A DNA stretch of 35,987 nt from Planctomycetota bacterium (lineage in GTDB: Bacteria > Planctomycetota > Planctomycetia > Pirellulales > UBA1268), in assembly GCA_016872925.1 (NCBI GenBank), contig VGYR01000005.1:1-35987 (forward strand), written 5' to 3'. Of the stretch, positions 4,692-33,294 are shown one piece after another. Position numbers and translations under genes: made by a program. Position 1 is the first letter of the stretch. Each line of letters begins with the position of its first letter. The notes below the pieces were generated by a model, which was not told the origin of the DNA, ran no database searches, and was given only the letters and a program-made list of their open reading frames with translations.

Positions 4692-4729
4692 CGTCGACTC
4701 CTGCACGCCTGCGAACACCGGTCGGCGGC

Positions 4730-4984
4730 TCACGGGCCGGCCGCCGTCTCCCGCACGAGTTCGGCCAGCCGCTCGACCATCCACGGCAGCGACACGACCA
4801 CCGCCGCCGCCATGGCGACGACCTTCGGCACGAACCCCACGATCGGCTCGTGCACGCCGCTGGCCGCCTGCACGAGGCCCGTCACCAGGCCGACGACGAG
4901 GCCGGCGGCCAGCGTGGGCAGGAGCACGACGAAGCCCGCGACGGCTGCGTGCCGCACCAGTTCGACGAGTTCCTGCTCCGTCAC
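4730..4984 (-). CDS. fliQ: Flagellar biosynthetic protein FliQ
   Basis: 84-aa two-TM protein (LLPTLAAGLVVGLVTGLVQAASGVHEPIVGFVPKVVAMAAAVVVSLPWMVERL) between fliP and fliR. Confidence 0.88.
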   Translation of the reverse strand: MTEQELVELVRHAAVAGFVVLLPTLAAGLVVGLVTGLVQAASGVHEPIVGFVPKVVAMAAAVVVSLPWMVERLAELVRETAAGP

Positions 4985-5000
4985 GGCATGCGCTCCGGGG

Positions 5001-5858
5001 TCAGGTGGGCAGCGACTGGACGCCGTCGAGGAGCGTGCGGACCACGAGCGTCCAGCCGTCGGCGGCGACGAACACGAGCAGCTTCAGCGGCAACGACACC
5101 AGCGACGGCGGCAGCATCACCAGGCCCGTGGCCACCACCAGCGTGGCGACGAGCAGGTCGAGCACCAGGAACGGCAGCAGCATCCGGAAGCCGATCGTGA
5201 AGGCGGTCTCGAGTTCGCTGACGAGAAACGCCGGCAGCAAGGCCTCGACCGGGACGTCGTCGTAGGTCGCCGGCTGCGTCCGGCCGGCCGGGTGGCGGGC
5301 CAGGAAGAGGAGCATGGTGTCGCGATTTCCGGCCTGCTCGATCTGGGAGGCCATCCAGCGGCGCACCGGCAGCGAGCCGCGATCGAGGGCCTCGACCGCC
5401 CCGACCTCACCGCGGCGGAAGGGCTCCATGCCCTCGCGCCAGGCCTGCGTCCAGACCGGCCACATCACCAGCGCCGAGAGAAAGATCGCCAGCGAGGCAA
5501 CCACCTGGTTCGAGGGAATCTGCGGCGCTCCGAGCCCCTGCCGGACGAGGGCCAGCACGACCGACATCCGCACGAAGCAGGTGGTCATCAGCAGCACCGC
5601 CGGGGCGAGGCTCACCACGCCGAACATCAACAGCGAGGGGAGCAGCGACTCGAGCGTCGCGGCCGAGAGGGAGCCGGGCCACGCCGCAGAGAGCGGCGCC
5701 GCGGCCGGCCGGACCGTCGAGGCCGCCAGGGCCGCGCCCTCGGCGACGTCGGACGTGGATCCGGGGCGCACGGGCTGCAGGTCGTCTGCGGCGACGGTCG
5801 CCACGCCGACCGCCAGCGCCAGCGCGATCCAGGAGAAGTGCAGGCACGGGCGGCACAT
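5001..5858 (-). CDS. fliP: Flagellar biosynthetic protein FliP
   Basis: LLMFGVVSLAPAVLLMTTCFVRMSVVLALVRQGLGAPQIPSNQVVASLAIFLSALVMWPV and AFTIGFRMLLPFLVLDLLVATLVVATGLVMLPPSLVSLPLKLLVFVAADGWTLVV are diagnostic. Confidence 0.93.
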   Translation of the reverse strand: MCRPCLHFSWIALALAVGVATVAADDLQPVRPGSTSDVAEGAALAASTVRPAAAPLSAAWPGSLSAATLESLLPSLLMFGVVSLAPAVLLMTTCFVRMSVVLALVRQGLGAPQIPSNQVVASLAIFLSALVMWPVWTQAWREGMEPFRRGEVGAVEALDRGSLPVRRWMASQIEQAGNRDTMLLFLARHPAGRTQPATYDDVPVEALLPAFLVSELETAFTIGFRMLLPFLVLDLLVATLVVATGLVMLPPSLVSLPLKLLVFVAADGWTLVVRTLLDGVQSLPT

Positions 5859-6457
5859 CACGAGCGCGCCTCCGCGGCGGCATCCTGCGACGCGGCCTTC
5901 CGCGGCCGGCCGAGGTTCCGCGCCGGGCCGCCCTGGCAGGCGGCGACGATCCGCTCGGTGGCCTGGGGATCGACGAGTTCGGCGAGCGTGCGGGCCCCCG
6001 ACGAGGACACGGCGACGAGGAGTGTCCGCGGGCCGAAGCGGACGACACGAACCGAGTGCTGGCCGCCGAGCGACGCCTCGCCGAGCAGTTCGAACACGTC
6101 GGGCGGCAGCGGGGTCGACCGCCGGCCGCCGAGGACGCGATACGCCGCCATGGCCGCGAAGGCGCCGCCGAGCGCGGCCAGCAGCCGCCAGTCGGGGAGC
6201 GGCCGCGGCGGAGCAGCGGGGCCGCCCGCTGCCGGGGTCGACGGCGGCAGCGCGATCGGACCGAGCACTGCGGCCGGCTTGGACTCGTGGGCGCCGGCGA
6301 CGTGCTGCCGGGAATCCGCCTCCTGATGAGCCACCGCCACCACGCCCGCGGCGCCGAAGCCCGCTTCGGGGGACGGCGCCACCGGCGGCTCGTCGGCCCG
6401 CACCTGGAGCGAGGCGGCGAGCAGGACCGCGACGCGGACGAACACGGTGCTGGCCAT
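5858..6457 (-). CDS. fliO: FliO-like flagellar assembly protein
   Basis: Signal peptide, one TM (LLAALGGAFAAMAAYRVLGG), ELLGEASLGGQHSVRVVRFGPRTLLVAVSSSGARTLAEL pattern; directly upstream of fliP with overlapping stop/start (TGATG). Confidence 0.7.
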   Translation of the reverse strand: MASTVFVRVAVLLAASLQVRADEPPVAPSPEAGFGAAGVVAVAHQEADSRQHVAGAHESKPAAVLGPIALPPSTPAAGGPAAPPRPLPDWRLLAALGGAFAAMAAYRVLGGRRSTPLPPDVFELLGEASLGGQHSVRVVRFGPRTLLVAVSSSGARTLAELVDPQATERIVAACQGGPARNLGRPRKAASQDAAAEARS

Positions 6458-6468
6458 GCTGGAGTGCC

Positions 6469-7989
6469 TCAGGCAGCCATGCGGCGGGAGCCGCCGCGGG
6501 AATCCCGCGCGGGGCTTTCGTCGTCCGCATCCGACCAGTCGATCCGCCGCGTGTGGATCCGCGTCGGCGCACCCTCCGGCCCCGCCGACGCCCGGCCGTG
6601 GCCGCTGCGGTAGAGCAGGTAGGCGAGCAGGGCGGAGCACTTGGCCGTGATCACCATCCAGGCTTCTCGGGGAATGTCGCCGAACCGGCCGTCCGAAACC
6701 GCCTGCAGCGTGACGTCGACATAGGCGCCGAGTGTCCGGGGTTTGCCGTCGCCGGCCGGAGCCTTGCCGCCCGCCGCCGGCGCTGGGGCTGCCGGAGCGG
6801 GCGCCGATCCCGCGGCAGCCGCCCGCGCCGTGGCCTGTGGGCGCGGCTGGGCGACGGGGAACCTCGTGATCACGACCCGCCGCTCCTCCCCGTGGGTGGC
6901 CGGAGGCAGCGACTGGAGGACGTGGCTCCGCAGCCGTTCCTCTTCGTGCCGGGCCGCATCGGCGGCCTTCGCAGTCGGCTCGCGGTCGCGGCCGGACTGC
7001 AGGGCGACGTCGAACCAGGTTTCGGGCACCGCCAACGACACCACGATCGCGTCGTGCCCGTCGCCCGGGGCGGCCGCCTGCTCGGGCGTTGCCGGTGGGC
7101 CGACCTCGGCGGGGGTGTTGGCGGCGGCCTCGGGCTGCGACTCGACGGGGGCGGCGACCGGATTCGGAGAGGCGGTCGCTGCGACCGTCACGTCGACGAC
7201 GGCACCCTTCACGAACGACACCGCCTGGCGGACCTTGGCGGCCAGGTGCCGCTCCAGTGCCATCCGCCGGGCCAGCGCCGGATCGCCCGCCGCGCCGGCT
7301 TCGGCGGCGGGGGAGTCGGCCAGGGGGCCGGCGTGCACCCGGCCGCTACGGAGGTCGGTGACGGCCACGCGGTCGGCGGAGAGGCCGGCGATCGACGAGG
7401 CGACGAGCACGCGGATCGCCTGCACCCGCGCCGGCTCGAGTTCCACGTCCGGCTGGGTGCGGACGTTGACGCTCGCGGTCCGCTCGGGTCCGTCGGCGAG
7501 GCCGCCGTCGAAGCCGTGGCGATCCTCGACGTCGTAGAGCACGGCAGCCCGCTCGATGCCCGGCATGGAGCAGATCACGTGGGCGAGTTCCTCCTGCAGG
7601 GCCACGCGGAGCAGCTCTTCCTGGGCCGCGCGGCTCTGCCACGGGCTGTTCTTCTCGAGCGCCCGCCGGAGGCTGCTGCCGAACTCCCGCGGCAGTGCCT
7701 CGGCATCGACCAGCGCCCGCATGTAGGCGCTCTGTCGCGACCGCGACACCCAGACCCGCCCGTCCTCGGTGCGGTGGCCCGTCAGCTGGGCCCGGTCGAA
7801 GGCGGCCTCGACGATCGCCAGTTCCGACGACGGCAGGGTCGTGCCCGGCAGGAGTTCCACCTCCTCGCTCGTCGGCCGGTCGCGCAGCAGCCAGGCCGCC
7901 CAGCCGATCGACGCGGCGACGAGGCCGAGCGCGACGACCTGGGCGGGGCCGGCGAACAGCGGACGCCGCGGCGGGGAGGACGAGTCCAT
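6469..7989 (-). CDS. fliF: Divergent FliF/YscJ-family M-ring protein
   Basis: N-terminal TM, RTEDGRVWVSRSRQSAYMRALVDAEALPREFGSSLRRALEKNSPWQSRAAQEELLRVALQEELAHVICSMPGIERAAVLYDV and TASVNVRTQPDVELEPARVQAIRVLVASSIAGLSADRVAVTDLRSGRV follow the FliF ring-domain pattern; C-terminal TM. Start taken at MDSSS. Confidence 0.72.
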   Translation of the reverse strand: MDSSSPPRRPLFAGPAQVVALGLVAASIGWAAWLLRDRPTSEEVELLPGTTLPSSELAIVEAAFDRAQLTGHRTEDGRVWVSRSRQSAYMRALVDAEALPREFGSSLRRALEKNSPWQSRAAQEELLRVALQEELAHVICSMPGIERAAVLYDVEDRHGFDGGLADGPERTASVNVRTQPDVELEPARVQAIRVLVASSIAGLSADRVAVTDLRSGRVHAGPLADSPAAEAGAAGDPALARRMALERHLAAKVRQAVSFVKGAVVDVTVAATASPNPVAAPVESQPEAAANTPAEVGPPATPEQAAAPGDGHDAIVVSLAVPETWFDVALQSGRDREPTAKAADAARHEEERLRSHVLQSLPPATHGEERRVVITRFPVAQPRPQATARAAAAGSAPAPAAPAPAAGGKAPAGDGKPRTLGAYVDVTLQAVSDGRFGDIPREAWMVITAKCSALLAYLLYRSGHGRASAGPEGAPTRIHTRRIDWSDADDESPARDSRGGSRRMAA

Positions 7990-8029
7990 CACGGGTGCTC
8001 TGGGGGCGGAGGAGGAAGCGGACGGTGGT

Positions 8030-8515
8030 TCAGGCGGCCTGCCGGCGGACGGCCCGCCGCGGGAGTCGGATGGTGACGGCCGTGCCGCCTTCAGCGCAGT
8101 CGGCCACGCCCAGCGTGCCGCCGCAGCGGTCGACGAGTTCGCGCACGGCGGCGGGGCAGCGGGCATCGAACGAGCCCGAGGGGCCGGAGTCGGCGATCTC
8201 GAGTTCGAAGGCGTCCGGCCCGTCGATCGCGGTGACCACGACCTCGTGGAGCGGCGGGCCGTCGCCGGGCGTGACGGCCGTCGCGGCCACGAAGGCGGAG
8301 GCGACCAGTCGCTCCACGGCGGCGCGGAAGGCCGCCGCGTCGGCGGTCACGCGGGTGTCGGCGGGCACGTCGAGGGCCAGCCGGACCGCGGCCGGTGCCG
8401 GCCGGTCGGCCACGATCGATTCGATCAGGTCGCGGACCCGCAGGCCCGCCGGAGGCACCAGGGGCAGGATCCGCGGCTCGGAGTCCGGGGCGTGGTCGGC
8501 AGGCGCATGACGCAT
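8030..8515 (-). CDS. Stand-alone HATPase-like (histidine-kinase ATP-binding) domain protein
   Basis: VRDLIESIVADRPAPAAVRLALDVPAD...FELEIADSGPSGSF...LVDRCGGTLGVADCAEGGTAVTIRLP resembles HATPase_c G1/G2 boxes; no kinase core or sensor domain. Confidence 0.6.
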   Translation of the reverse strand: MRHAPADHAPDSEPRILPLVPPAGLRVRDLIESIVADRPAPAAVRLALDVPADTRVTADAAAFRAAVERLVASAFVAATAVTPGDGPPLHEVVVTAIDGPDAFELEIADSGPSGSFDARCPAAVRELVDRCGGTLGVADCAEGGTAVTIRLPRRAVRRQAA

Positions 8516-17899: not shown

Positions 17900-19729
17900 T
17901 CAATGTGCGGCCGCAGCCGCCGCCACGGCCGCGGCGTTCGGGGGATCGGTCTGCATCAGGTGGTCCTTCTCGACGCCCGGCACCGAGTATTCGTAGGGGC
18001 CGCGGTAGACGACCGGCTGATAGTCGAAGTTGCCGTGGCCCGGCGGGCTCGGGGCGGTCCACTCGAGCGTGTTGGCATTCCACGGATTCCGGCCGGCGAC
18101 CGGGCCCCAGAACATGCTGTAGATGAAGTTGGCCGCGAAGATCACCTGCGTGGCCACCATCCCGATGGCGCAGTACGTCATGAAGGCGTTGAGCGGCTGG
18201 AGGTGGTGGAAGGTCTCGTAGTGGTAGGCATCGGCCAGCCGGCGGGGAAACCCGACGGCGCCGAGGATGTGCATCGTGAAGAAGGTGCCGTTGAGGAAGA
18301 TGAACGTCAGGAAGAAGTGCACCTTCCCCCAGAACTCGTTCATCGTGCGGCCGAACATCTTGGGGAACCAGAAGTAGATCGCCGCCCAGACGCCCATCGC
18401 GGTGCCGGCGAAGAGCACGTAGTGGAAGTGGGCCACGATGAAGTAGGTGTCGTGGATGAAGATGTCGACCGGCGTGGCCGCCATGAAGATGCCCGACAGG
18501 CCGCCGATGATGAACATCGACACGAACGAGATGGCGAACAGCATCGACGTCGTGAACTGGATCTTGCCCCCCCAGAGCGTGCCCAGCCAGTTGAACGTCT
18601 TCACGGCGCTCGGGAGGGCGATCATCATCGTCGACACCATGAAGGTGATGCCGAGGGCCGGGTTCATGCCCGACATGAACATGTGGTGGCCCCAGACGAT
18701 GAAGCCCAGGCCGGCGATGCCGGCGATCGAGTAGACCATCGGCCGGTAGCCGAACAGCGGCTTGCGGGCGAACACGGTGAGGATGTCGCTGACCATGCCC
18801 ATCGCCGGGAGGATCATGATGTACACGGCGGGGTGGCTGTAGAACCAGAACAGGTGCTGCCAGAGCAGCGGCTGGCCGCCGCCGGCGCCGGCGATGGCGT
18901 TGTTGACGACGTTGCCCTCCGGCGAGAAAAAGCCGGTGCCGAGCATCCGGTCGGAGAGTTGCATGAAGCCGGCGGCGGTGAGCACGGGCAGGGCGAAGGC
19001 CTGGAGGACGGCGGTGATGAACATCGCCCAGATCGTCATCGGCAGGCGGAACATCGTCATCCCGGGGGCCCGCATCAGGATGATGGTGGTCATGTAGTTG
19101 ACGCTGCCGAGCATCGAGGAGACGCCGACGAACGTCAGGCCGAGCAGCCAGAGCGTCTGACCCATGCCGCTGGCGGGCGACGAAGCCGGGTTGGTGGAGA
19201 GCGTCGGATAGCTCGTCCAGCCGCCCGACGCCGCCCCCCCCTCCACGAAGAAGCTGGCTCCGAAGCAGACGAAGGCCGGCCACATGAACCAGTACGACAG
19301 CATGTTGAGCGTCGGAAACGCCATGTCGTCGGCCCCGATCATCAGCGGAATCAGGAAGTTGCCGAATGCGCCCGCGAGGATCGGGATGATCACCAGGAAG
19401 ATCATCACCGTGGCGTGCATCGTGAACAGCATCGTGTAGAACTCGGGGGCCATCTGTCCCCCTTCCTGGGCGAACAGCTTGCCCACGACCGGCACGTCGG
19501 ACCACGGCCAGGCCACCTGCCAGCGGACGGCGAGCGCCAGGAGCCCGCCGATCAGAAACCAGAGCAGCGTCGAGAACAGGAACTGCAGCCCGATGACCTT
19601 GTGATCCTTCGAGAACACGTAGGTCGAGAGGAAGTGACCGATCCCGCCCTCGGCCGCGTGGGCGGGGGCGTGGACGACCGCGGAACCGTGATCGACGGCG
19701 GGCGTGGCGGTGGTGGGGGGCGGGGTCAT
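17900..19729 (-). CDS. ctaD: Cytochrome c oxidase subunit I (heme-copper oxidase, YSHP motif)
   Basis: TMHATVMIFLVIIPILAGAFGNFLIPLMIG, LFWFYSHPAVYIMILPAMGMVSDI, GFIVWGHHMFMSGMNP, VDIFIHDTYFIVAHFHYVLF. Confidence 0.97.
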   Translation of the reverse strand: MTPPPTTATPAVDHGSAVVHAPAHAAEGGIGHFLSTYVFSKDHKVIGLQFLFSTLLWFLIGGLLALAVRWQVAWPWSDVPVVGKLFAQEGGQMAPEFYTMLFTMHATVMIFLVIIPILAGAFGNFLIPLMIGADDMAFPTLNMLSYWFMWPAFVCFGASFFVEGGAASGGWTSYPTLSTNPASSPASGMGQTLWLLGLTFVGVSSMLGSVNYMTTIILMRAPGMTMFRLPMTIWAMFITAVLQAFALPVLTAAGFMQLSDRMLGTGFFSPEGNVVNNAIAGAGGGQPLLWQHLFWFYSHPAVYIMILPAMGMVSDILTVFARKPLFGYRPMVYSIAGIAGLGFIVWGHHMFMSGMNPALGITFMVSTMMIALPSAVKTFNWLGTLWGGKIQFTTSMLFAISFVSMFIIGGLSGIFMAATPVDIFIHDTYFIVAHFHYVLFAGTAMGVWAAIYFWFPKMFGRTMNEFWGKVHFFLTFIFLNGTFFTMHILGAVGFPRRLADAYHYETFHHLQPLNAFMTYCAIGMVATQVIFAANFIYSMFWGPVAGRNPWNANTLEWTAPSPPGHGNFDYQPVVYRGPYEYSVPGVEKDHLMQTDPPNAAAVAAAAAAH

Positions 19730-19787: not shown

Positions 19788-20585
19788 TCAGTTGGCGGCG
19801 ACGTCGTCGGCCGGAGCCGGCGGCTGGGTGGTGCCCTGCTCGGCGTACTTCCGCTCGAGCCAGGCGTCGAAGTCGGCCCGCGACTCGAAGGTCACGCGGC
19901 CCTTCATCTTGTAGTGCCCCCACCCGCAGAGTTCGGCGCACACGATGTCGTACTCGCCGACGTCGCGGGCCTTGAACCAGACCGGGATCTTCATCCCGGG
20001 AACGGCGTCCTGCTTGATGCGGACGTTGGGCAGGAAGAACGAGTGCAGCACGTCCATGCTCTTGAGCTGGATGAGCACGTCTTCGTCGACGGGCAGGTGG
20101 AGGTCGTTGACGAGAAACAGGTCGTCGGGCGTGCCGAGCGAGCCGTCCCGGCCCGGATAGCGGAGCCGCCATTCGAACTGCCGCGCCACGACCTCGACGG
20201 TCGGCTCCATCGCGGGCCGCCGCATCTTGACGTCGGCCCAGGCGTTCATCTGGTAGATCGCCAGGAACAGGAGCGTGGCTGCGGGAATGATCGTCCAGAC
20301 GACCTCGAGCGTGTGGCTCCCCTGGATGTACGTCGCGGGCCCCGACTGCTTCGCCGCGTCGTACTTCCACATGAACCAGAAGAGCACCACCTCCGTGACG
20401 ACGAACACGACCCCGGTCAACGCCAGGATGAAGTAGAACAGCGAGTCGATGCTGCCGCCGTGCTCCGAGACGTCCTTCGGCAGCCAATGGTCGTACGCCG
20501 GGGCGACGGCGAACGTCAGCACGCCGAGCACCGGGACGGCGAGGAACAACAGTGACCAGAAGATGCCGGCGAGTCGCTTGCCCAC
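19788..20585 (-). CDS. ctaC: Cytochrome c oxidase subunit II (CuA)
   Basis: Two N-terminal TMs, DVLHSFFLPNVRIKQDAVPGM and CuA motif CAELCGWGHYKMKG; no C-terminal cytochrome c domain. Confidence 0.95.
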   Translation of the reverse strand: MGKRLAGIFWSLLFLAVPVLGVLTFAVAPAYDHWLPKDVSEHGGSIDSLFYFILALTGVVFVVTEVVLFWFMWKYDAAKQSGPATYIQGSHTLEVVWTIIPAATLLFLAIYQMNAWADVKMRRPAMEPTVEVVARQFEWRLRYPGRDGSLGTPDDLFLVNDLHLPVDEDVLIQLKSMDVLHSFFLPNVRIKQDAVPGMKIPVWFKARDVGEYDIVCAELCGWGHYKMKGRVTFESRADFDAWLERKYAEQGTTQPPAPADDVAAN

Positions 20586-20621: not shown

Positions 20622-21941
20622 TCAGAACCTGTCTTTCGCCACCAACGGACGATCGACGCCGAGTTCGCCGTCGAAGTCGTAGGGCAGCGACCGGATGTAG
20701 TTGACGATGTGCCAGATCTCCTCGTCGGGCACACTCCCCTTGCCGCCGGGGCCCGACGGCCCCACGCCCGGCATCGGCGCGCCGTTGATGCCGGTGTAGA
20801 GCCGGCGGTAGAGATCGAGCGGACGCCGGCCGCCACGGTACAGGCCGAGCCGGAGATTCCGCGGCGGGATCGTCCGTGGCCGAAGCGCGTCTCCCTCGAT
20901 GACATCCTCGGCCGCATGCAGCCAGGCGGAGCGGGCGGCGTCGGACTTGCCCGCGGCGAGCCCGCCGCTGACCTCCTTGCTCCACTCCACGATCACCTTG
21001 TTCCAGTCGTCGTAGTCGTTGGCCTGGCCGTCGCCGAGCGCCGTCACCCCGTGGCACTTCACGCAGCCGCCGTCGCCATGAAACAGGGTCCGCCCGCGGG
21101 CGACCGACTCGCGGTTGGCCGGATCGTCGCCGGGCTTCGAGAAATCCACGTTCGCCGGCACGGCCGCGATCGGGATCGCCGCCTCCTCCGCCCCCTGCCA
21201 CTTCTCCACGATCGGGGTCAGGATCTCGTCGACCAGAAACTCGCGCGTCTCGGGGAACCGGTCGTCGGTGCCGAGTTCCTGCTCGGCATACGAGTAGAGC
21301 GCCAGTTCCGTCTCGCCGCGGATCGAGAGGTAGCGGACGTATTCGACCAGCGCGTCGACCTGCGCCGGCGGCAGCAGGGCGAACGAGGGCATCGACGAGC
21401 CCGGCACACCCTGGTGTAGCAGGCGGACGAGATCGTCCCGCGACGGCCGGGCGTCGCGCCACGTCCCCTTGAACTTGAACTTGCCCGGGCGGTAGTCGCG
21501 GGGATACGGGTTGAGAAAGGCCGCGGTCGGCCCCATGCCATCGCCGCTGATCCCGTGGCAGTGGGCGCAGTGCTCACGGTAGAGCCCGTTCTTGCGGCCC
21601 ACGATGTCGCTCCGCACGGGACCGGCCGCCAGGGCGAGTTTGGCGTGGTCGAGCCCAGTCTCCGCGAGGGCGACCGGTTCGTCGGGGGTGCCGAACATCG
21701 CCTCGAGGATCGTCGCCACCTGCGCCTGCCGCTCCCGGGCCCAGCCTGCCCACGGCTTCTCCATCCCGGCCTCGGGCGCCGCCGACTTGGTCGCCTGGAC
21801 CATGTTGAGCCGGAAGGCCGCCGGCGGCGTGCGGCCACACCCGACCGCGGCGACGAGGACGGCGAGCACGGGAACGACGCGGAGTCCGGAACGCGACACC
21901 ATCTTCATACCAGGGAGAGGGGATTGACGGGGCTTGATCAT
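20622..21941 (-). CDS. Diheme cytochrome c lipoprotein
   Basis: Lipobox VAAVGC; two CxxCH motifs (CAHCH, CVKCH); precedes ctaC. Confidence 0.87.
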   Translation of the reverse strand: MIKPRQSPLPGMKMVSRSGLRVVPVLAVLVAAVGCGRTPPAAFRLNMVQATKSAAPEAGMEKPWAGWARERQAQVATILEAMFGTPDEPVALAETGLDHAKLALAAGPVRSDIVGRKNGLYREHCAHCHGISGDGMGPTAAFLNPYPRDYRPGKFKFKGTWRDARPSRDDLVRLLHQGVPGSSMPSFALLPPAQVDALVEYVRYLSIRGETELALYSYAEQELGTDDRFPETREFLVDEILTPIVEKWQGAEEAAIPIAAVPANVDFSKPGDDPANRESVARGRTLFHGDGGCVKCHGVTALGDGQANDYDDWNKVIVEWSKEVSGGLAAGKSDAARSAWLHAAEDVIEGDALRPRTIPPRNLRLGLYRGGRRPLDLYRRLYTGINGAPMPGVGPSGPGGKGSVPDEEIWHIVNYIRSLPYDFDGELGVDRPLVAKDRF

Positions 21942-22825
21942 GTGCCGATCGCTCCGGCGGGAACCTCGAGCGTGCCGAGATCCTTCACCTCGTCGGCCTG
22001 GAGGGTGATCGTGAATCGGCCCTTGGGGTTCCACTTCAGCTCGGGCCGGGTCAAAACGACGCCGCCGCCGGAGCCCGTGGCGCGGGCGTGCCAGACCTGG
22101 AACTCCAGCAGCTCCCCGGCCGGAAGGTCGGCGATTTCGAACGAACCGTCGGCGGCCGACACGGCCGCGTAGCCATCCTTGCGGACGAGCATGTAGGCCT
22201 TCATCCAGGGGTGGATGTTGCAGGTCACGGCCTTCGGGACGCCCATTTCCGAGTCGAGCGTGTAGGCGGTCCCCTGCCCCGCGGGAATCAGCTGGTTGAA
22301 GCTCGTGCCGTCGATGTTGGTGTTGTGCCCGACGGGGTCGCTGTTCTTGATGTCGATCGCCTGGCCCACGCGGCCCACGAACACGGGCGACAGAAACTCG
22401 CAGTTCTTCTGATCGAAGACGGCGGCCGGCGCCGCGGCAGCCGGCGCCTTCACGCGGCTCGCCTTGCGGACGAACACGACGACGTCGGCGAGCCCCTTCG
22501 TGGAGGCGTCGACCCGCAGCGAGCGGTCCACGAGCTTCGACGACGTGCCGCAGACCTCCGTGTCCTTGTCGACCACCAGGGCCTTGGGCTGCCCCGGGTC
22601 GCCGGCGAACACGAACCGCCCCTTCAGGCCGGCCCAGCCCGTGCCCGTGCTGGCCGCCACCGCCCCGTCGGACGCGGTGGCCGAAGCCGCCCGCAGGGTC
22701 TCGCGGAGCGCCGCGGCCGCACCGCTGTCGGCGACCGGCGCCGACACCCGCTGCGGGCCGCAGCCGCCTGCGAGGGCGGCGGTCAGGCCGAGCATGGGGG
22801 CGACGCTGCGGAGCGACGAGTTCAT
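21938..22825 (-). CDS. Cupredoxin-like lipoprotein (type 1 copper ligands) with C-terminal beta-sandwich
   Basis: Lipobox LAGGC; NSDPVGHNTNI and TCNIHPWMKAYMLVR (His...CxxHxxM); DGSFEIADLPAGELLEFQVWHAR. Start at MNSSLRS. Confidence 0.8.
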   Translation of the reverse strand: MNSSLRSVAPMLGLTAALAGGCGPQRVSAPVADSGAAAALRETLRAASATASDGAVAASTGTGWAGLKGRFVFAGDPGQPKALVVDKDTEVCGTSSKLVDRSLRVDASTKGLADVVVFVRKASRVKAPAAAAPAAVFDQKNCEFLSPVFVGRVGQAIDIKNSDPVGHNTNIDGTSFNQLIPAGQGTAYTLDSEMGVPKAVTCNIHPWMKAYMLVRKDGYAAVSAADGSFEIADLPAGELLEFQVWHARATGSGGGVVLTRPELKWNPKGRFTITLQADEVKDLGTLEVPAGAIGT

Positions 22826-22850
22826 GGTGCGGCAAACCTTGCGTGGAGGA

Positions 22851-23621
22851 CTACTTCTGGAACACGGCCGGCGCCAGCACGATCTCGCCGAGATCCGTGC
22901 CACCCGCCGCGACCGTCACCTTCTTGCGGCCCTTCGAGGCCTTCTCGGCCTTGCCGCCGATCGACATCTCGCCGAGGTAGCCGGCCTTCTCATGCCAGAA
23001 CTGCAGCTCCAGTTCGCCGACCGGAAGGTCCTCGATCTCGAAGGTGCCGTCGGCCTTGGAGACGGCGGCGTACGGATTCGGGCGGACGAGCAGCCAGCCC
23101 TTCATCCACGGGTGAATGTTACAGGTCACCTGGGCGGGAATCGCCTCGTCGCTGGCGAACTTCAGCGAGGCGGTTCCGCCGGCCGGGATCAGGTTGTTGG
23201 AGGGGGGATTCTTGATCGTGGCGATGTTGCTGTTGTGGCCGACCGTGTCGGAGTTCTTGACGACCAGTTCCTGACCGACCTGCACGAACGTCACGTGCGG
23301 CTCGAAGCGGCAGTTGGCGTTGTCGAGTTCAACCTTGGCGGCAGCCGCCTTGGCCGCCTCGGGACTGACCTTGACGTCCTTGTCGCGCACGAAGACGACG
23401 ACGTTGGCGATGCCCTTGTCGCCCCCGACGATCAGCTCCTCGGCGAGGAGCTTGTGCTTGCCGCACACCTCCACGTCCTTGTCGGCCTTGAGCTCCGACG
23501 CGGTCGGGGGATCGCCTCCAAACACGAACTTGCCCTTGATCGACCCCCACTCGTCGGCGGGGGCGACGGCGGCGGACGCGACGAGGAGTGCGGCGGACAG
23601 GACCGGCATCAGACGTGTCAT
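22851..23621 (-). CDS. Cupredoxin-like secreted protein, adjacent paralogue of 21938-22825
   Basis: Signal peptide; KNSDTVGHNSNI, TCNIHPWMKGWLLVR, DGTFEIEDLPVGELELQFWHEKA. Confidence 0.82.
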   Translation of the reverse strand: MTRLMPVLSAALLVASAAVAPADEWGSIKGKFVFGGDPPTASELKADKDVEVCGKHKLLAEELIVGGDKGIANVVVFVRDKDVKVSPEAAKAAAAKVELDNANCRFEPHVTFVQVGQELVVKNSDTVGHNSNIATIKNPPSNNLIPAGGTASLKFASDEAIPAQVTCNIHPWMKGWLLVRPNPYAAVSKADGTFEIEDLPVGELELQFWHEKAGYLGEMSIGGKAEKASKGRKKVTVAAGGTDLGEIVLAPAVFQK

Positions 23622-23677: not shown

Positions 23678-26600
23678 TCAGTTTAGGACTGCCGCCTCCG
23701 GCGACGACCGGACCGACGACAGGGGCCCCGCCTGCGGGGCCGGGAAGGGCTGGGCCGCGGCCCGCGGGGCCGCCGGCTGCTGGCCCGGTTGGGGCTGCTG
23801 GCCGGGCTGCGGGGCGACCGGCTGCTGACGCAGGAAGGCCTCGAGGGACAGGTTCTGTTTGGCGAACGCGTCGAAGTGCATGAGCAGGTCGGTGAGGGCA
23901 TCGACCTGCTGCTCGCTCGACCCGGCGTACAGGTCCTGGCTGACCGGCTGATTGAACGGGATGTTCACCGGCATCCCGGTGTAGGGCAGGAACCGCTTGG
24001 GGTTGGCGATCCAGCCGTGCACGTAGTCGGGCCGGAGCCGCTCGTGCACCCGCTGCAGCTGAGGGGCCAGGGCCTTCACGCTGCCCGGCGGCGTGTAGTC
24101 ACCGATCAGGTGGCACTTCACGCAGTAGTTGTTGTTGGTGACGATCTTCAGCGCGCCCTGGAGGTGGCCCGGATGCGACCGCTCGGCAGCCGCGAGCGAA
24201 GCGTCGTCGAGCCGCGGGTCGTAGACGTAGGGATACTCCGCCCCGTCGACGGCCGCGAAGTAGTTGACGAGCGCCGCGGCCTTCGCCGAGTCGAAGTGGA
24301 ACTTCGGCATCCGCAGCACGGCCGGCGGGCGGATGGGATGCGGGTTGAGCAGGAACTTGTGCAGCCAGGCCGACTGCACCTTCTTGCCCTCGCCGACCAG
24401 GGGCGGCGGCAGCCAGCCCCAGGCGTCGTCGGGCTTGACGTTGGGATTCACCTGCTTCTCGTCGGCGATCACCACCGGAAACAGCAGCCGCGCCAGGTCG
24501 CCACCCCAGCCGGGATAGTGACGGCCGGCGGCCACGGCGTCGTCCGGCACCAAGAGGTTCTGGGCCCCCACGGTCCGGGGCTCGCCGTCCACCAGCGTGT
24601 CCTGCCAGAGCGCGAACGGCCGATGCGCGACCGACTCGGTGTCGTCCGGCTCGATCGGCACGCCGTCCTCGTCGACCACCTGCGGCTTCCCGGTCTCGGG
24701 ATCGAGTGTCGGCATGCCGACGAGCGTGGTCCGCCGCCGGCCCTGGCGGTCGGTGGCCAGCGAGGCGGCGACCTGGTCGGGGGAGAAGTGCGGCGACAGG
24801 AAGGGATAGTCGGCGAACGCCGGCGCCTCGCCGAGGCTCTCGGGCTTGTAGCGGAGGTCCCAGCGGTCCATCCGCAGCGTGTGGCAGCCGCCGCAGTTGT
24901 ACTGCTCGGCCACCACGAGGCCGTCGAGCCGGGCCTGCTCGCGGGGCCCCGGCTTGTGGACGTACTGCGGCGCCGGCGGCTCGGCGACCAGGCCGAGCAC
25001 GAAGGTCATCACCGCCTCCCGCTGCTTCTCGTCGAACGGGAACTGCGGCATCCGGTACCGCTCGTTGTAGGTCTTGTTCTCCGCCTTCTTGTAGTCGTAG
25101 CTCCGCGGCGCCCGGAGCTTCTGCCAGAGGAATCCCTCCCGCTCGTGGCCCAGCAGCTTCTCGAGGAAGTAGCCGGTGTCGGGATCGACCGACTCGGGGT
25201 CGACGTGCAGCCCCTCCTCCGCCAGTTCGTAGGCGAGCTTCGGCGTGAGCGCGTCGTCGCCGGTCTCCGCACCCGCACCATGGTCGCCCGGCTGTCCATG
25301 TGCGGCGTGCCCGCCATGCCCAGCGTGCCCGCCATGCCCGGCGTGACCGTGGGCAAGCTGGTGCATCACGAAGTGCGACGCCTGCTCGAAGGCGATCCGC
25401 GACGGATCCTTGCGGCCCCAGTCGGCCAGCGCCGCACCGGCCGGCTTGCCGTCCTCGAACCCGGGAATGTCGTGGCAGGAGTAGCAGGCCAGCTTGTTGA
25501 TCGTCTTCTTGCCCACGTAGGCGAGCAGCTGGCGGTCTCGGTCCGGGCCCGCAAGGCCGGCGAGCATCCGCTCGTCGCCCTGGATCGCGGCGCCGGCATC
25601 GATGCCCCGCTCGAGCACCTCCTGGGCACGGACGACCGTGAACCGCTCCTTCAGGTACATCAGCGCCAGTTCGTCGAGCGCGGCCCGCTCCTCGGTGGTC
25701 ATCGAGTTGGCCGACGCCATCGCGAAGGGGACCTCGCCGCCGAGCGTCTCCACCATCCACTCCGCGGCCGGCTTCCAGTCACGGCCGGAGCCCATCAGGT
25801 ATTCGGTGGCGTCGGCGGCAGGGTCGCTGACGGTCCCGTCGGCGAGCGGCACCGGCTCCAGCAGCACGTTGGGCATGATCGTCTTCGGGTGGTATCGCGA
25901 CGGCTCGCGGAGCCAGCTGTAGAGCCACTGCTTGCCCTGCGGGTGGGACGCGGCCTTGGCGCCGATCCGCGAAAGGTTGGGGCCGTGGGTGCTCGTGGCC
26001 TCCGGGAAGTCGTCATGCTGATGGCAGGCGAGGCAGCCGCGGAGTTGCACGACCTTCCTCCCGCGGGCCGCGTCGGCCGCGGCGGTGATGCCCTCGAACG
26101 GCTTGACGTATTCGAACGGCGCGCTCGACTCGGTGAGGTAGTGCACCATCGAGCGGATCTCCAGCGGCTCGTACCGCCGCGACTCCTCGAGCTGCTTGCC
26201 TTCGAGGTGGCTCCAGAGCCCGAAGAACCGGGGCATCTTGGTGGACGGTCGGAACTCCTGCGGATTCCGCAGCCAGGCGTAGAGCCAGTCGAAGCCGAGC
26301 TTGCTCGACAGGTGCCGCAGGCTGGGACCGACCTTGGGCAGCGTGCCGGGCGTCTCCGGGTCCTTGAGCAGCACCGCCATCTGATGGGACCGCGGCGAGA
26401 GCCTCGCGCCGGCGCCCTCGGCCGCGTCCCGCTCGATCGCGTCCCGCAGCCGGTTCCGCGACTCGCGGCTGTCGGGGCCGGAGCGGACGTCGGCCACCCA
26501 GCGGACGAACGTGTCGCCCATCTCGGCGATCGCCGGATCGGAGGCCAGCGCCTCGGCGGCCTCGTGGAAGGTCGGCTCGACCCGCATGTCGGGTCCGATC

Positions 26601-28258
26601 CGCTTCTCGGGGCCGGCCCAGCCGTTGATCTCGTGGCAGCCGTAGCAGCCGTACTGGCGGATCAGGTGATAGCCCTCGACGAGCTTCGGGGCGGGGGGCT
26701 CGGGGAAGCGTTCACTCGGCTCGAGATCCACGACCTGATGGTGGCACTTCAGGCAGCTCGACTCCTCGAACCGCTCGGGGAGCATCGGGTAGATCCAGTG
26801 GTGGTTGTTGAACCAGCCGTGCTCGTCATGCCACTCGTGGGCCTGCTTCGGGGTGTTCGGCGTGTGCGACGCCCACTTGAAGCTCGTGGAACTGCCCTGA
26901 CCCTGGTGGCAGATCGTGCAGCCGAAGTTCTTCATCGGATGCGGGCTGCCGTCGCTGACGAACAGGTCGAGACGCGGGTGGGTGGAATAGGGCTGCGGCA
27001 CGCCGCGCCGGACGGTGAGCGACAGCGGCGCCCCCCACTGCGGCGTGTCGAGCAGCGACGCGACGGCCATCTTGCGGGCCAGGGTCTTGCCGCCGCCGAC
27101 CGACTGGATCACGTCGCCGGCCTGCAGTCCGGCGACCGCGGCGGGCGACTCGGGCACGACGACGCTGATCGTCGGATCGTCGGGGTCGAACAGGCCCCGC
27201 GCCGCCAGCCGCATCCCGTAGGCCGCCTCCAGGGCCTCGTTGCCGTCGCCGGCGGCCGACGGCTTCTCGACCGGCGTCGCCAGGGTGACCTCGACCGCCT
27301 CGGCCTCCGGATAGCCCGGCTCCGTCGGTGCCCCCGGCAGCGACTTGTCCATCCCGCGGTGGCAGGTGATGCAGCGGTCGAAGCGGGCGACGTCGCGGAA
27401 GTTGTTGTTGAGCGTGAGTTGCGGGAGCCAGATCTGCTCGATCCTCAGCGGACCGTTGAAGGCGTCGAGCACGGGCAGCTCGAGCAGGCTCTTGCCGGCG
27501 TTCGGCCGGCGCTGCTCGAAGGTCTTCTGCAGCTGGGCGAGCTTGGCACGATGGTCGGCGACCGCCTTGGCGGCGTCGTCTTCCCCCTTGGTGATCCGGG
27601 CCAGCACGGCTTCGAGCCGCTTGCGGTGGGAGTTGGCGTCCTGGAAGGCGAGGTTCGCGGCCGTCACCTCCTCGCGCTTCGCGTCGGCGAGCGCCAGGAG
27701 CGCCGCCTGCCGGTCGGCGGGGGCCTCGTTCGAGACGGCGAGTTCGTAGTCAGCCCGGTTCTTGTCGAGTTCGGCCCGCCTGAGCTTGAGGGCGCCGGCC
27801 CGGCTGTCCTCGCGGAACTTCGTCCGGGCGACGATGTCCCGCAGCCGGGCAAGCAGGTCGCCACGGAGCACCAGCCGCTCCTCGGCGTCGCCCTGGGTGG
27901 CGAGCTGGTCCACGTCGTTCTCCGCCAGATCCGCCGCCTGGGCGTCGGTGGCGACGGTGCGAACCTCCGCGAGAAACGCCTTGGCGAGTTCGGCATCGAG
28001 CGGGGCCCGCCGGGCCAAGCCCAGCGCCGCCTCGAGTTCGTCACGCCGCGACTCGTAGGCCTTCGAATCCTGCTCGTCGATCCGTGCCGCGGCCGTCCAG
28101 GTCTCCAGGCCGCGGAACTCGCGGGCGTACTTCTTCCAGGGCCGATTGTGGTCGGCCGTGAGCATCAGGATCGTCGACACCAGGAGCGCCACGGCCGACG
28201 CCGCGAACACCACGTGCAGGCTCTTGAGGTTCCACCAGGTCTGTTCGGTTGCGGGCAT
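23678..28258 (-). CDS. Giant membrane-anchored octaheme cytochrome c with coiled-coil region, PDZ-like segment and His/Gly-rich loop
   Basis: 1526 aa; one N-terminal TM; eight CxxCH motifs (CITCH, CTICH, CLKCH, CYGCH, CLACH, CYSCH, CGGCH, CVKCH); PDZ-like ISVVVPESPAAVAGLQAGDVIQSVGG; GHAGHGGHAGHGGHAAHG loop. Confidence 0.88.
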   Translation of the reverse strand: MPATEQTWWNLKSLHVVFAASAVALLVSTILMLTADHNRPWKKYAREFRGLETWTAAARIDEQDSKAYESRRDELEAALGLARRAPLDAELAKAFLAEVRTVATDAQAADLAENDVDQLATQGDAEERLVLRGDLLARLRDIVARTKFREDSRAGALKLRRAELDKNRADYELAVSNEAPADRQAALLALADAKREEVTAANLAFQDANSHRKRLEAVLARITKGEDDAAKAVADHRAKLAQLQKTFEQRRPNAGKSLLELPVLDAFNGPLRIEQIWLPQLTLNNNFRDVARFDRCITCHRGMDKSLPGAPTEPGYPEAEAVEVTLATPVEKPSAAGDGNEALEAAYGMRLAARGLFDPDDPTISVVVPESPAAVAGLQAGDVIQSVGGGKTLARKMAVASLLDTPQWGAPLSLTVRRGVPQPYSTHPRLDLFVSDGSPHPMKNFGCTICHQGQGSSTSFKWASHTPNTPKQAHEWHDEHGWFNNHHWIYPMLPERFEESSCLKCHHQVVDLEPSERFPEPPAPKLVEGYHLIRQYGCYGCHEINGWAGPEKRIGPDMRVEPTFHEAAEALASDPAIAEMGDTFVRWVADVRSGPDSRESRNRLRDAIERDAAEGAGARLSPRSHQMAVLLKDPETPGTLPKVGPSLRHLSSKLGFDWLYAWLRNPQEFRPSTKMPRFFGLWSHLEGKQLEESRRYEPLEIRSMVHYLTESSAPFEYVKPFEGITAAADAARGRKVVQLRGCLACHQHDDFPEATSTHGPNLSRIGAKAASHPQGKQWLYSWLREPSRYHPKTIMPNVLLEPVPLADGTVSDPAADATEYLMGSGRDWKPAAEWMVETLGGEVPFAMASANSMTTEERAALDELALMYLKERFTVVRAQEVLERGIDAGAAIQGDERMLAGLAGPDRDRQLLAYVGKKTINKLACYSCHDIPGFEDGKPAGAALADWGRKDPSRIAFEQASHFVMHQLAHGHAGHGGHAGHGGHAAHGQPGDHGAGAETGDDALTPKLAYELAEEGLHVDPESVDPDTGYFLEKLLGHEREGFLWQKLRAPRSYDYKKAENKTYNERYRMPQFPFDEKQREAVMTFVLGLVAEPPAPQYVHKPGPREQARLDGLVVAEQYNCGGCHTLRMDRWDLRYKPESLGEAPAFADYPFLSPHFSPDQVAASLATDRQGRRRTTLVGMPTLDPETGKPQVVDEDGVPIEPDDTESVAHRPFALWQDTLVDGEPRTVGAQNLLVPDDAVAAGRHYPGWGGDLARLLFPVVIADEKQVNPNVKPDDAWGWLPPPLVGEGKKVQSAWLHKFLLNPHPIRPPAVLRMPKFHFDSAKAAALVNYFAAVDGAEYPYVYDPRLDDASLAAAERSHPGHLQGALKIVTNNNYCVKCHLIGDYTPPGSVKALAPQLQRVHERLRPDYVHGWIANPKRFLPYTGMPVNIPFNQPVSQDLYAGSSEQQVDALTDLLMHFDAFAKQNLSLEAFLRQQPVAPQPGQQPQPGQQPAAPRAAAQPFPAPQAGPLSSVRSSPEAAVLN

Positions 28259-29672: not shown

Positions 29673-30446
29673 TCACAGCGGCCCGCTGATGCCGCCGTCC
29701 TTTCGCACGCGCCAGAAGTGGATCGCCAGCAGGAGCGCGACGGCCAGCGGAATCGCGATGCAGTGCAGCACGTAGAAGCGGTTGAGCGTCTCCTCCCCCA
29801 CGAAGCGGGCGCCGAGCAGCCCGAAGCGGGCGTCGGAGGCGTCGGTGATCATGTCGATGCCGCCCACCGTGAGCAGCTGCTGCCCCGGCCCCTCGTAGCC
29901 GAGGAAGGGAGTCGCGCGGGCCATGTTCGAGCCCACCGTGATCGCCCAGATCGCGAGCTGATCCCAGGGCAGCAGGTAGCCGGTGAACGACAGCAGCAGC
30001 GTGAGCAACAGCAGGATCACGCCGACCACCCAGTTGAACTCCCGGGGGGGCTTGTAGCTGCCGGTGAGGAACACCCGGTACATGTGCAGCCAGGTGGTGA
30101 TCACCATCGCGTGCGCACCCCAGCGGTGGAGTTCGCGGAGAATCCCGAGGCTGGTGACGTCGCGGAGGGCCAGGATGTCGTTGTAGGCCCACTCCAGCGT
30201 GGGGCGGTAGTAGAACATCAGCAGCACGCCCGTGACCGTTTCCACCAGGAACAGGAAGAACGTGACGCCCCCCATGCACCAGGTGAACGACAGGGCGATG
30301 CCCTGCTTCTTGATCGACACGGGGTGCAGGTGGAGGAAGAAGTTGGTGAGCATCACCACGATCCGGTTCCGCCGATCGAGCGGCATCGGATGGCGGAAGA
30401 TGCTCTTCCAGATCTGGGAGTTGCGGATGGTCTCGCCGATGGCCAT
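29673..30446 (-). CDS. Cytochrome b N-terminal domain protein (cytochrome b6-like)
   Basis: [110 protein letters not shown]. Confidence 0.95.
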
Positions 30447-30467: not shown

Positions 30468-31541
30468 TCAGACGGTCACGTACGATTCGGGGTCGGCCCA
30501 CTGGCCGAGCTCCTCCTGGAACGTCCTGCTCTTGTCGATCTCGAGCTGCCCGTCGTCGGCGATGCGGATCGCATACCGCTCCAGCGGCCGTGGCGCGGGC
30601 CCCTCGAAGTTGACGCCGTCCTTGTAGAAGCCGCTGCCGTGGCAGGGGCACTTGAACTTCTGCTCCGCCTCGAGCCAGCTCGGCGTGCAGCCCAGGTGCG
30701 TGCAGACCGTCTTCAGGGCGTAGATCTGCTGCTGCCCGTTGAAGTCGCCGTTCACCACCCAGACGCCGTACTGCGGCACGTACTTCGTCTCGACCTTGCC
30801 GGACGGGAAGCCGTCCTTGAAGCCCACCTTGAACTTGCTGGGGGGCTCCGCAAGCACGTTGGGGAACATGAATCGCGCCAGCCCGAGCGTGAACAGGCCG
30901 CTGGTGACCGACAGGGCCGTGAAGCCCAGTGCCATCGCCGAACCCAGGGCGATCTGCAGGAACCCGCGGCGGTCTTCCGCCTCCTCCCCCTTCTTCGCCG
31001 GCTTGACCGGCTTCGGGGGCACGGTGGCGACGGTCCGTGGCGGAGCGGCCCGCTCTTCGGCCGGCTTCGGCTCGCGCGGCTTCGGCGCCGGTCGCGTCGG
31101 CGCATCGGCCTTACTGACCGGTCCGGGCTTCGCCCCGGCGCGGGCAGCTGCGAGGATGCTCGCGGTATCCCGCTGCACTCCGGTCTTCGGGCCACCGACG
31201 GCAGCGGCAGGCTTCGCGGCCGCCGGCTTGGCCGGCGCCGCCTTGGCCGCGGCAGCCGGCTTCGCGGCCGGAGCGGCGGCGGGCGCATCGCCTGCCTCCT
31301 TCTTCGCGCGGGCCATGGCGAGGATGTCGGCCACGCTCGGACGAGCACCCCCTGCGGCAGGCTTCGCGGCAGGAGCGGACTTCGGCGCGGCCGGCTTTTC
31401 GGCGGCGGTGGTGGCGGCCGGCTCCGCAGCCGATTCGGCGGGCTGATCAGCCGGGGCCGCCGGCGCAGCGGTTCCCTTGCCGTCTGCAGCCCGGGCGGCC
31501 GCCAGAATCTCCGCCACCGACATCTTCTTCTTGTCTGCCAT
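30468..31541 (-). CDS. Rieske 2Fe-2S protein with ~190-aa Ala/Pro/Lys-rich N-terminal extension
   Basis: CTHLGCTPSWLEAEQKFKCPCHGSGF; Tat-like RRGFLQIALGSAMALGFTAL at residue ~191, preceded by low-complexity sequence. Confidence 0.93.
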   Translation of the reverse strand: MADKKKMSVAEILAAARAADGKGTAAPAAPADQPAESAAEPAATTAAEKPAAPKSAPAAKPAAGGARPSVADILAMARAKKEAGDAPAAAPAAKPAAAAKAAPAKPAAAKPAAAVGGPKTGVQRDTASILAAARAGAKPGPVSKADAPTRPAPKPREPKPAEERAAPPRTVATVPPKPVKPAKKGEEAEDRRGFLQIALGSAMALGFTALSVTSGLFTLGLARFMFPNVLAEPPSKFKVGFKDGFPSGKVETKYVPQYGVWVVNGDFNGQQQIYALKTVCTHLGCTPSWLEAEQKFKCPCHGSGFYKDGVNFEGPAPRPLERYAIRIADDGQLEIDKSRTFQEELGQWADPESYVTV

Positions 31542-31702: not shown

Positions 31703-31929
31703 CGTCGCTGGACCTGCCGCGACCCCCTCGTCCGGGAGGTTTGCCGCGTTCCGCAGCGGCATTCGTGGCCCGTCGGATCCTCCCCACCCCGTGCCGACCG
31801 TCGACAGACCCACGCCACGGGCGCCGCCGAGAGCCGGTTCGTTCGGTACAACCACGGTCCGCGGGCGTCGTCCGTCGCCAGGAGGGCGACGCCGCTGTGC
31901 CACCTCCCCCATCCTCGAGGACTCACCCC

Positions 31930-33294
31930 GTGCCCGCATCCCGCCGCGTTCTCGTCGTGGGGGGCGGCGGCAGGGAGCACGCCCTCGCCTGGAAACTCGC
32001 GGGCGACGGCGCCGAGGTGCTCGTCGCTCCCGGCAACGCCGGCACGGCGGCCGTGGCCGAAAACGTTCCCATGGCGGCCACCGATGTGGCCGGACTGCTC
32101 GACGTTGCCCGCTGTCGCGGCATCGACCTCACCGTCGTCGGCCCGGAGGCGCCACTCGTGGCGGGGATCGTCGACGAGTTCACCGCGGCCGGCCTGCGGA
32201 TCTTCGGTCCCACGAAGCGGGCGGCGGCGATCGAGGGCAGCAAGTCGTTCTGCAAGCAGATCCTCCATCGCGGCGACGTCCCGACCGCGATGTACCGGGA
32301 GTTTCGCTCCGCGGCCCGGGCCCGCGAGCATCTGGAAGCCCGCGAGGACATGCCGGTGGTGATCAAGGCCGACGGCCTCGCCGCGGGCAAGGGGGTGTTC
32401 GTCTGCCAGAACCGCGCCGAGGCCTCGGCCGCCGTGTCCAGCCTCGCGTCCGACCCGCTGCTGGCCGCGGCCGCCGGGAGCATTCTCGTCGAGGAGCGGC
32501 TCGACGGCGTCGAGGTGAGCGTGCTGGCGATCACCGACGGCCGCACGATCGTGACGCTCCCGCCGCTCCAGGATCACAAGGCGGCCCACGACGACGACCA
32601 GGGGCCGAACACGGGGGGCATGGGCGCCTACTGCCCCACCCCCTTCGTCGACGACGCGCTGCTCGCCGAGATCGAGGGGCGGATCCTGGTGCCCACGGTC
32701 CACGCGATGCGGCGGGCGAAGGTGCCGTTTCAGGGGGTGCTCTATGCTGGGCTGATGATCACCGCGCAGGGGCCGAAGGTGCTCGAGTTCAACGCCCGGT
32801 TCGGGGATCCGGAGTGCGAGCCGCTGCTGATGCGGATGGAGTCGAGCCTGCTGGAACTGCTCGACGCCACCGTCGACCGCCGGCTCGACGCCTGCGCAGC
32901 CCCGCGGTGGCGCGAGGGGGCCGCGGTGAGCGTGGTGATGGCCAGCGCCGGATACCCCGGTGCGGTCACCAAGGGACAGCCGATCCGGGGGCTGGAGGCG
33001 GCCGCGGGGCTGCCGGACGTGCAGGTGTTCCACGCGGCCACGCGGCATCTCGACGGGCAGGTCGTCGCCGACGGTGGGCGGGTGCTGGCCGTGACGGCGC
33101 TCGGGCCGTCGCTCGGCCGCGCGAAGCTGCACGCCTACACGGCCGTCAAGGAGATCCGCTGGCAGGGAGCGTGGTGCCGCAAGGACATCGCCGACAAGGG
33201 GCTGCGGCGGGAGCGGGACCTGCTTGCGGCCGAGGCCGTCAGCCAGGAATCCCCGGCAGACGACACCACGAGCCCGGAGCCCGCCACGTCATGA
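31930..33294 (+). CDS. purD: Phosphoribosylamine-glycine ligase
   Basis: RRVLVVGGGGREHALAWKL, VAPGNAGT, GPEAPLVAGIVDEF, VIKADGLAAGKGVFV, DHKAAHDDDQGPNTGGMGAYCP, LEFNARFGDPECEPLLMRM. GTG start. Confidence 0.95.
   Translation: MPASRRVLVVGGGGREHALAWKLAGDGAEVLVAPGNAGTAAVAENVPMAATDVAGLLDVARCRGIDLTVVGPEAPLVAGIVDEFTAAGLRIFGPTKRAAAIEGSKSFCKQILHRGDVPTAMYREFRSAARAREHLEAREDMPVVIKADGLAAGKGVFVCQNRAEASAAVSSLASDPLLAAAAGSILVEERLDGVEVSVLAITDGRTIVTLPPLQDHKAAHDDDQGPNTGGMGAYCPTPFVDDALLAEIEGRILVPTVHAMRRAKVPFQGVLYAGLMITAQGPKVLEFNARFGDPECEPLLMRMESSLLELLDATVDRRLDACAAPRWREGAAVSVVMASAGYPGAVTKGQPIRGLEAAAGLPDVQVFHAATRHLDGQVVADGGRVLAVTALGPSLGRAKLHAYTAVKEIRWQGAWCRKDIADKGLRRERDLLAAEAVSQESPADDTTSPEPATS

Follow-up and report, generated by a model that had tools for sequence, protein, structure and literature searches.

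An octaheme cytochrome c with an inserted PDZ domain, encoded between b6f-like and aa3-type oxidase genes in Pirellulales

The window, i.e. the whole stretch of 35,987 nucleotides that was analysed, comes from a planctomycete of the order Pirellulales and carries on its minus strand, in this order, genes for a Rieske protein, a b6-type cytochrome b, a subunit IV-like protein (bC), an octaheme cytochrome c, two cupredoxin-like proteins, a diheme cytochrome c, CoxB and CoxA (Table 1). CoxA is followed by genes that, named by sequence alone, encode heme A synthase, heme O synthase, CoxC, CoxD and a SCO-like protein. Cupredoxin-like protein 2 gave no Pfam match. Elsewhere in the window, a run of flagellar export apparatus-like genes (fliF-, fliO/P- and fliR-like) occupies positions 3903-8166 of the minus strand, and a purD-like gene (31791-33170, plus strand) sits upstream of the Rieske gene in divergent orientation and is a neighbour in the distant locus L048 as well.

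Table 1. Features of the respiratory gene cluster and of the octaheme protein, in window coordinates
Feature	Position	Strand	Basis and remarks
Rieske iron-sulfur protein	30468..31541	minus	last four codons (30471-30482) encode YVTV-COOH, candidate PDZ ligand
b6-type cytochrome b	29673..30446	minus	four-helix; sequence, domain matches
Subunit IV-like cytochrome b C-terminal protein (bC), extra transmembrane helices	28337..29662	minus	domain match
Octaheme cytochrome c gene	23678..28258	minus	1526 aa, ATG start, single open reading frame
N-terminal membrane helix, residues 11-37	28148..28228	minus	AlphaFold2 helix, hydrophobic sequence
Charged helical region, residues 40-250, ending in long hairpin 125-176/181-250	27509..28141	minus	AlphaFold2, composition
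Heme 1 CXXCH (residue 296)	27359..27373	minus	sequence, alignment
PDZ domain, residues ~318-420; carboxylate-loop Gly348, GD381-382	26999..27307	minus	Pfam, AlphaFold2, Foldseek, conservation
Heme 2 CXXCH (residue 447)	26906..26920	minus	sequence, alignment
Heme 3 CXXCH (residue 502)	26741..26755	minus	sequence, alignment
Heme 4 CXXCH (residue 538); invariant Met675	26633..26647	minus	sequence, alignment
Heme 5 CXXCH (residue 742); invariant Met795	26021..26035	minus	sequence, alignment
Heme 6 CXXCH (residue 925); invariant Met1070	25472..25486	minus	sequence, alignment
Heme 7 CXXCH (residue 1122); invariant Met1317	24881..24895	minus	sequence, alignment
Heme 8 CXXCH (residue 1379); invariant Met1429	24110..24124	minus	sequence, alignment
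Cupredoxin-like protein 1, CxxHxxM site	22851..23621	minus	sequence, domain match
Cupredoxin-like protein 2 (start approximate)	21938..22828	minus	homology to protein 1 family
Diheme cytochrome c (start approximate)	20622..21938	minus	sequence, domain match
Cytochrome oxidase subunit II (CoxB)	19788..20585	minus	CuA motif CAELCGWGHYKM
Cytochrome oxidase subunit I (CoxA)	17900..19729	minus	domain matches

An earlier note on this DNA had described the octaheme gene as encoding a giant cytochrome with eight CxxCH motifs and a single N-terminal transmembrane segment next to a split cytochrome b, and each of these points was confirmed, including the coordinates. That translation starts at this ATG is supported by the homologues, whose first residues, MPATEQTW, are near-invariant. 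All 16 cysteines of the protein sit in its eight CXXCH motifs and none lies outside; a chance origin of these motifs is ruled out by an expectation of 0.006 and a maximum of 1 in 2000 shuffles. When the query was aligned with 29 homologues, H427, H440, H465, M675, M795, M1070, M1317 and M1429 proved invariant. These three histidines and five methionines amount to one extra ligand for each of the eight hemes, which implies that three hemes, those close to the membrane anchor, are bis-His and the other five His/Met; Table 1 gives the putative pairing for the latter.

The region ahead of the first heme was modelled with AlphaFold2 (residues 1-440, 47 sequences, mean pLDDT 84). Residues 40-250 are helical, with 37% charged residues and 4% proline plus glycine. 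For what the earlier note read as about 250 residues of charged coiled-coil stalk, a helical hairpin is the better fit, as the model consists of shorter helices and one long antiparallel hairpin. Foldseek found no whole-chain match to a model of the eight-heme part (residues 262-1461); the top matches were to the PDZ domain alone.

This PDZ domain lies between hemes 1 and 2; the insertion falls after heme 1 and ahead of the segment RG..P...HPRLDL. A profile search for domains had been posed beforehand as a possible refutation of what was then called a PDZ-like segment, and it placed both Cytochrom_C and PDZ_6 above their cut-offs (PDZ_6 with 30.4 bits against 27). Furthermore, AlphaFold2 predicts a compact domain at about residues 320-420 with a pLDDT of about 85-94, and Foldseek matches it to PDZ domains of the PDB with a probability of 1.00 and a target TM of up to 0.78. 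The peptide-loop residue Gly348, like Asp382, is found in all 46 sequences compared, and position 347 is tyrosine or phenylalanine in every one of them. Taken together, profile match, conservation, prediction and structural comparison rule out a low-complexity artefact. The domain shares fold, peptide-loop glycine and GDxI motif with other PDZ domains (PDZ_6, PF17820; PDZ, PF00595), but differs from them in being inserted inside a multiheme cytochrome. Its aB1 helix position is mostly arginine by our own alignment, which is not the canonical PDZ specificity residue.

Octaheme cytochromes of this family occur across the Planctomycetota. A match at E <= 0.001 was obtained in 58 of 60 related genomes, a few of the matches being partial or restricted to the PDZ, and in the first 50 loci examined, eight CXXCH motifs were counted in each homologue that no contig end truncates. 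At E <= 1e-30, a profile search detected related proteins in 88 of 244 genomes of the phylum; 20 of the loci from those 88 genomes were read, and every intact homologue again has eight motifs, with overall identity to the query falling to 23-39%. In a scan of genome contigs, those of the best 80 matches listed that carry organism titles are planctomycetes, and a search for plasmid carriage gave no match.

The PDZ is not a general trait of this family. Ten Planctomycetaceae-like homologues have just 50-67 residues between hemes 1 and 2, and no PDZ was found in them; no Pfam match to a PDZ was obtained in the further Planctomycetota loci L140, L141, L142, L146, L147 and L149 either. When a profile of the PDZ segment was run against 298 genomes of the class, all 41 strong matches (E < 1e-20) were long open frames from Pirellulales, whereas outside this order no match was better than about 1e-12, and most lay in far shorter frames. 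The domain is thus common to the Pirellulales homologues and was found in no other order sampled. Many Pirellulales genomes, among them many of families f7 and f15, gave no strong match to the PDZ-octaheme segment. From this distribution, the PDZ arose once, as a single late insertion in one order from which all PDZ-containing sequences descend. The survey suggested by the earlier note, i.e. whether the insertion is conserved beside split cytochrome b genes, therefore has a divided outcome: nearly all homologous Planctomycetia genes adjoin bc-complex genes, contrary to the note's refuting case of homologues always distant from them, but the PDZ is confined to one order. We regard it as a lineage-specific conserved insertion, whose peptide loop looks functional. 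One divergent member of the order (L048:6242-10234) lacks most of the pre-heme helices and has its first heme at residue 120; it keeps the PDZ, with an insertion of about 35 residues ahead of the last strand, and its Rieske tail deviates from the motif described below.

The gene order from the Rieske protein through b6, bC, octaheme, cupredoxin and diheme c to CoxB and CoxA is shared by loci throughout Pirellulales and by the ten Planctomycetaceae-like ones (family f21). No cytochrome c1 was found in the window's genome, and for cytochrome f a single match below the cut-off was obtained there and none above it; neither PF02167 nor PF01333 (cytochrome c1 / cytochrome f) is among the Pfam families matched by the octaheme protein. 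Consequently, the octaheme protein is most likely the replacement of cytochrome c1/f, wiring quinol oxidation to the aa3 oxidase. The earlier note's proposal of a substitute for cytochrome c1 is well supported by these absences and by the gene's position behind Rieske-b6-bC, which almost every homologous locus of Planctomycetia shares. The octaheme complex is not the sole quinol route, because the genome contains a second Rieske/cytochrome b complex (L150:2582-5193; G000 contig C1, 31500-40000), made up of a Rieske protein of 196 aa and a cytochrome b of 742 aa that is fused to diheme cytochrome c domains. This second complex resembles the Kuste3096-3097 type.

Octahemes that replace cytochrome f are already known from anammox bacteria, whose b6f-like Rieske/cytochrome b complexes have a hexa- or octaheme cytochrome in its place, namely Kustd1485 of Kustd1480-1485 and Kuste4573 of Kuste4569-4574 (PMC12954380). 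In an AlphaFold3 model, the large subunit Kustd1485 wraps the complex and its Rieske protein with long helices, and the complexes with these multiheme subunits were proposed to make NAD(P)H (PMC12954380). Both kinds have a multiheme cytochrome c encoded with a Rieske protein, a four-helix b6-type cytochrome b and a subunit IV-like protein, and the multiheme protein itself has six or eight hemes (eight in the window), an N-terminal transmembrane segment and long helices. In contrast, the protein of the window is about 1.6 times longer, contains a PDZ and is encoded with an aa3 oxidase instead of an NAD(P) oxidoreductase. Between the Rieske and CoxA genes of the window no NAD(P) oxidoreductase gene could be recognised, aa3 genes being found instead; we therefore assign the protein to the same kind of c subunit but not to an anammox-type NAD(P)-linked complex. 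It is probably an aerobic, enlarged version of the known subunit.

Members of the family with eight hemes and 938-956 aa were detected in genomes of the phylum that have two b6-type cytochromes b besides a fused one, the pattern described for Kuenenia. In G261, G137 and G203 a b6-type cytochrome b is found a few kb or less from the short eight-heme member, and likewise in G235, which has three b6-type genes. The members of 945-956 aa near a b6-type cytochrome b in these four anammox-like genomes may correspond to Kustd1485. Short members of 945-950 aa were also noted in the anammox-like genomes of L147 (5390-8224) and L148 (6537-9386); in L147 the gene has moved, and the closest b6-type cytochrome b is about 20 kb away. 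A functional parallel exists in the actinobacterial QcrC, a diheme cytochrome cc that forms the membrane-anchored link of complex III to aa3 in an obligate III2IV2 supercomplex, without free cytochrome c (PMC8361435). The window protein would likewise be a membrane-anchored multiheme c subunit joining complex III to an aa3 oxidase; the likeness is one of function, and the window differs by eight hemes instead of two, a split b6-type cytochrome b, a PDZ and a helical hairpin. Three points are new: the inserted PDZ, its confinement to a single order, and the Rieske tail that matches it. No precedent for a PDZ in a complex III cytochrome subunit, and no direct one for a PDZ with multiheme cytochromes or in planctomycete complex III, was found in the open-access literature searched.

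The earlier note had the PDZ docking a partner tail, a plausible hypothesis to which the conservation of the Rieske C-terminus lends indirect support. In non-redundant clusters, the Rieske protein ends in [FY][VIY]x[VA]-COOH in 60 of 63 with the PDZ, against 3 of 17 without it, and it ends exactly nine residues past the conserved GxW in 61 of 63 against 5 of 17. Overall similarity of the Rieske proteins is comparable in both sets: in the ten Planctomycetaceae-like loci the mean identity is 68% and the end varies, whereas in PDZ-containing loci outside the window's family it is 70% and 34 of 36 keep the end. The second Rieske protein of the window's genome ends in KVVQG. By family topology, the C-terminus of the operon's Rieske protein should be on the PDZ's side of the membrane. 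A ligand of the PDZ would be expected to resemble this conserved tail. However, all PDZ-containing sequences share one ancestor, so that the contrast may reflect shared ancestry; in addition, similar tails occur in some relatives without the PDZ, and aB1 is mostly arginine. We therefore propose only tentatively, and consider somewhat doubtful, that the Pirellulales PDZ grips the free Rieske C-terminus ([FY]-[VI]-x-V-COOH) and thereby holds or gates the mobile [2Fe-2S] head beside heme 1. To our knowledge, a tail-tether of the Rieske protein is known in no bc1 or b6f complex.

Alternatively, the PDZ might be structural filler or an assembly aid between hemes 1 and 2 that binds no peptide, with the Rieske tail kept for packing. 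We give this reading a little less than an even chance: besides the single insertion and the arginine at aB1, tail conservation is partly older than the PDZ, as two relatives without it (L130, L131) have Rieske tails SFVPV or SFVEV, while the conserved loop residues 347 and 348 and a Rieske end frozen to the residue in the PDZ-containing set argue against it. Another candidate ligand would be the tail of an assembly or quality-control protease, of an uncharacterised subunit or of another operon product. In the bacterial envelope, PDZ domains often function in proteases, for example DegP and RseP, and both Pfam and NCBIfam put the octaheme PDZ near envelope-protease families by sequence. However, among PDZ-containing loci the tails of the cupredoxin-like proteins, diheme c, CoxB and the octaheme protein vary in length and residues, and the bC tail LN[FIL] is conserved in loci without the PDZ too and probably cytoplasmic by its predicted topology; these operon tails are thus the less likely ligands, and we consider binding of any such other tail unlikely.

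We regard it as probable that the octaheme protein is the c-type subunit replacing cytochrome c1/f in a b6f-like complex clustered with an aa3-type oxidase. The genes, motifs, conserved ligands, synteny and fusions are observed, and the PDZ fold is supported by profile and prediction; the path and order of electron transfer, the heme potentials, the wrapping by helices and any binding by the PDZ are our inference. Electrons from quinol would pass via the Rieske protein to the bis-His triheme N-terminal part (hemes 1-3), from there to the five His/Met cytochrome c domains (hemes 4-8), and then via the blue-copper protein and/or the diheme c to CuA of CoxB. The N-terminal helix anchors the octaheme protein, the long hairpin probably embraces the membrane complex, and the PDZ, inserted next to heme 1, may act as a lineage-specific periplasmic docking module, most likely for the tail of the operon's own Rieske protein. 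The CxxHxxM site is kept in 221 of 224 cupredoxin-like neighbour proteins, and L121:10001-15424, L129:10001-15499 and the distant L142:4962-10556 encode the octaheme protein with a cupredoxin-like protein fused to its C-terminus; this suggests that electrons are handed over directly. Operon conservation and these fusions are suggestive of a III-IV supercomplex. That the octaheme complex feeds another acceptor, the aa3 genes being merely co-located, is very unlikely: although the anammox relatives belong to complexes with proposed NAD(P)H formation (PMC12954380) and coxA/coxB are absent nearby in L048, L141 and L143, coxB and coxA come next in nearly all Pirellulales and Planctomycetaceae-like loci long enough to show them, and the window lacks a recognised NAD(P) oxidoreductase gene in the interval named above.

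Positioning of the Rieske head and the wiring of complexes III and IV without free cytochrome c are long-standing questions. The octaheme complexes with the PDZ in Pirellulales and without it in other orders offer a natural comparison, and a dock between PDZ and Rieske tail would be testable with the PDZ and a short Rieske tail peptide.
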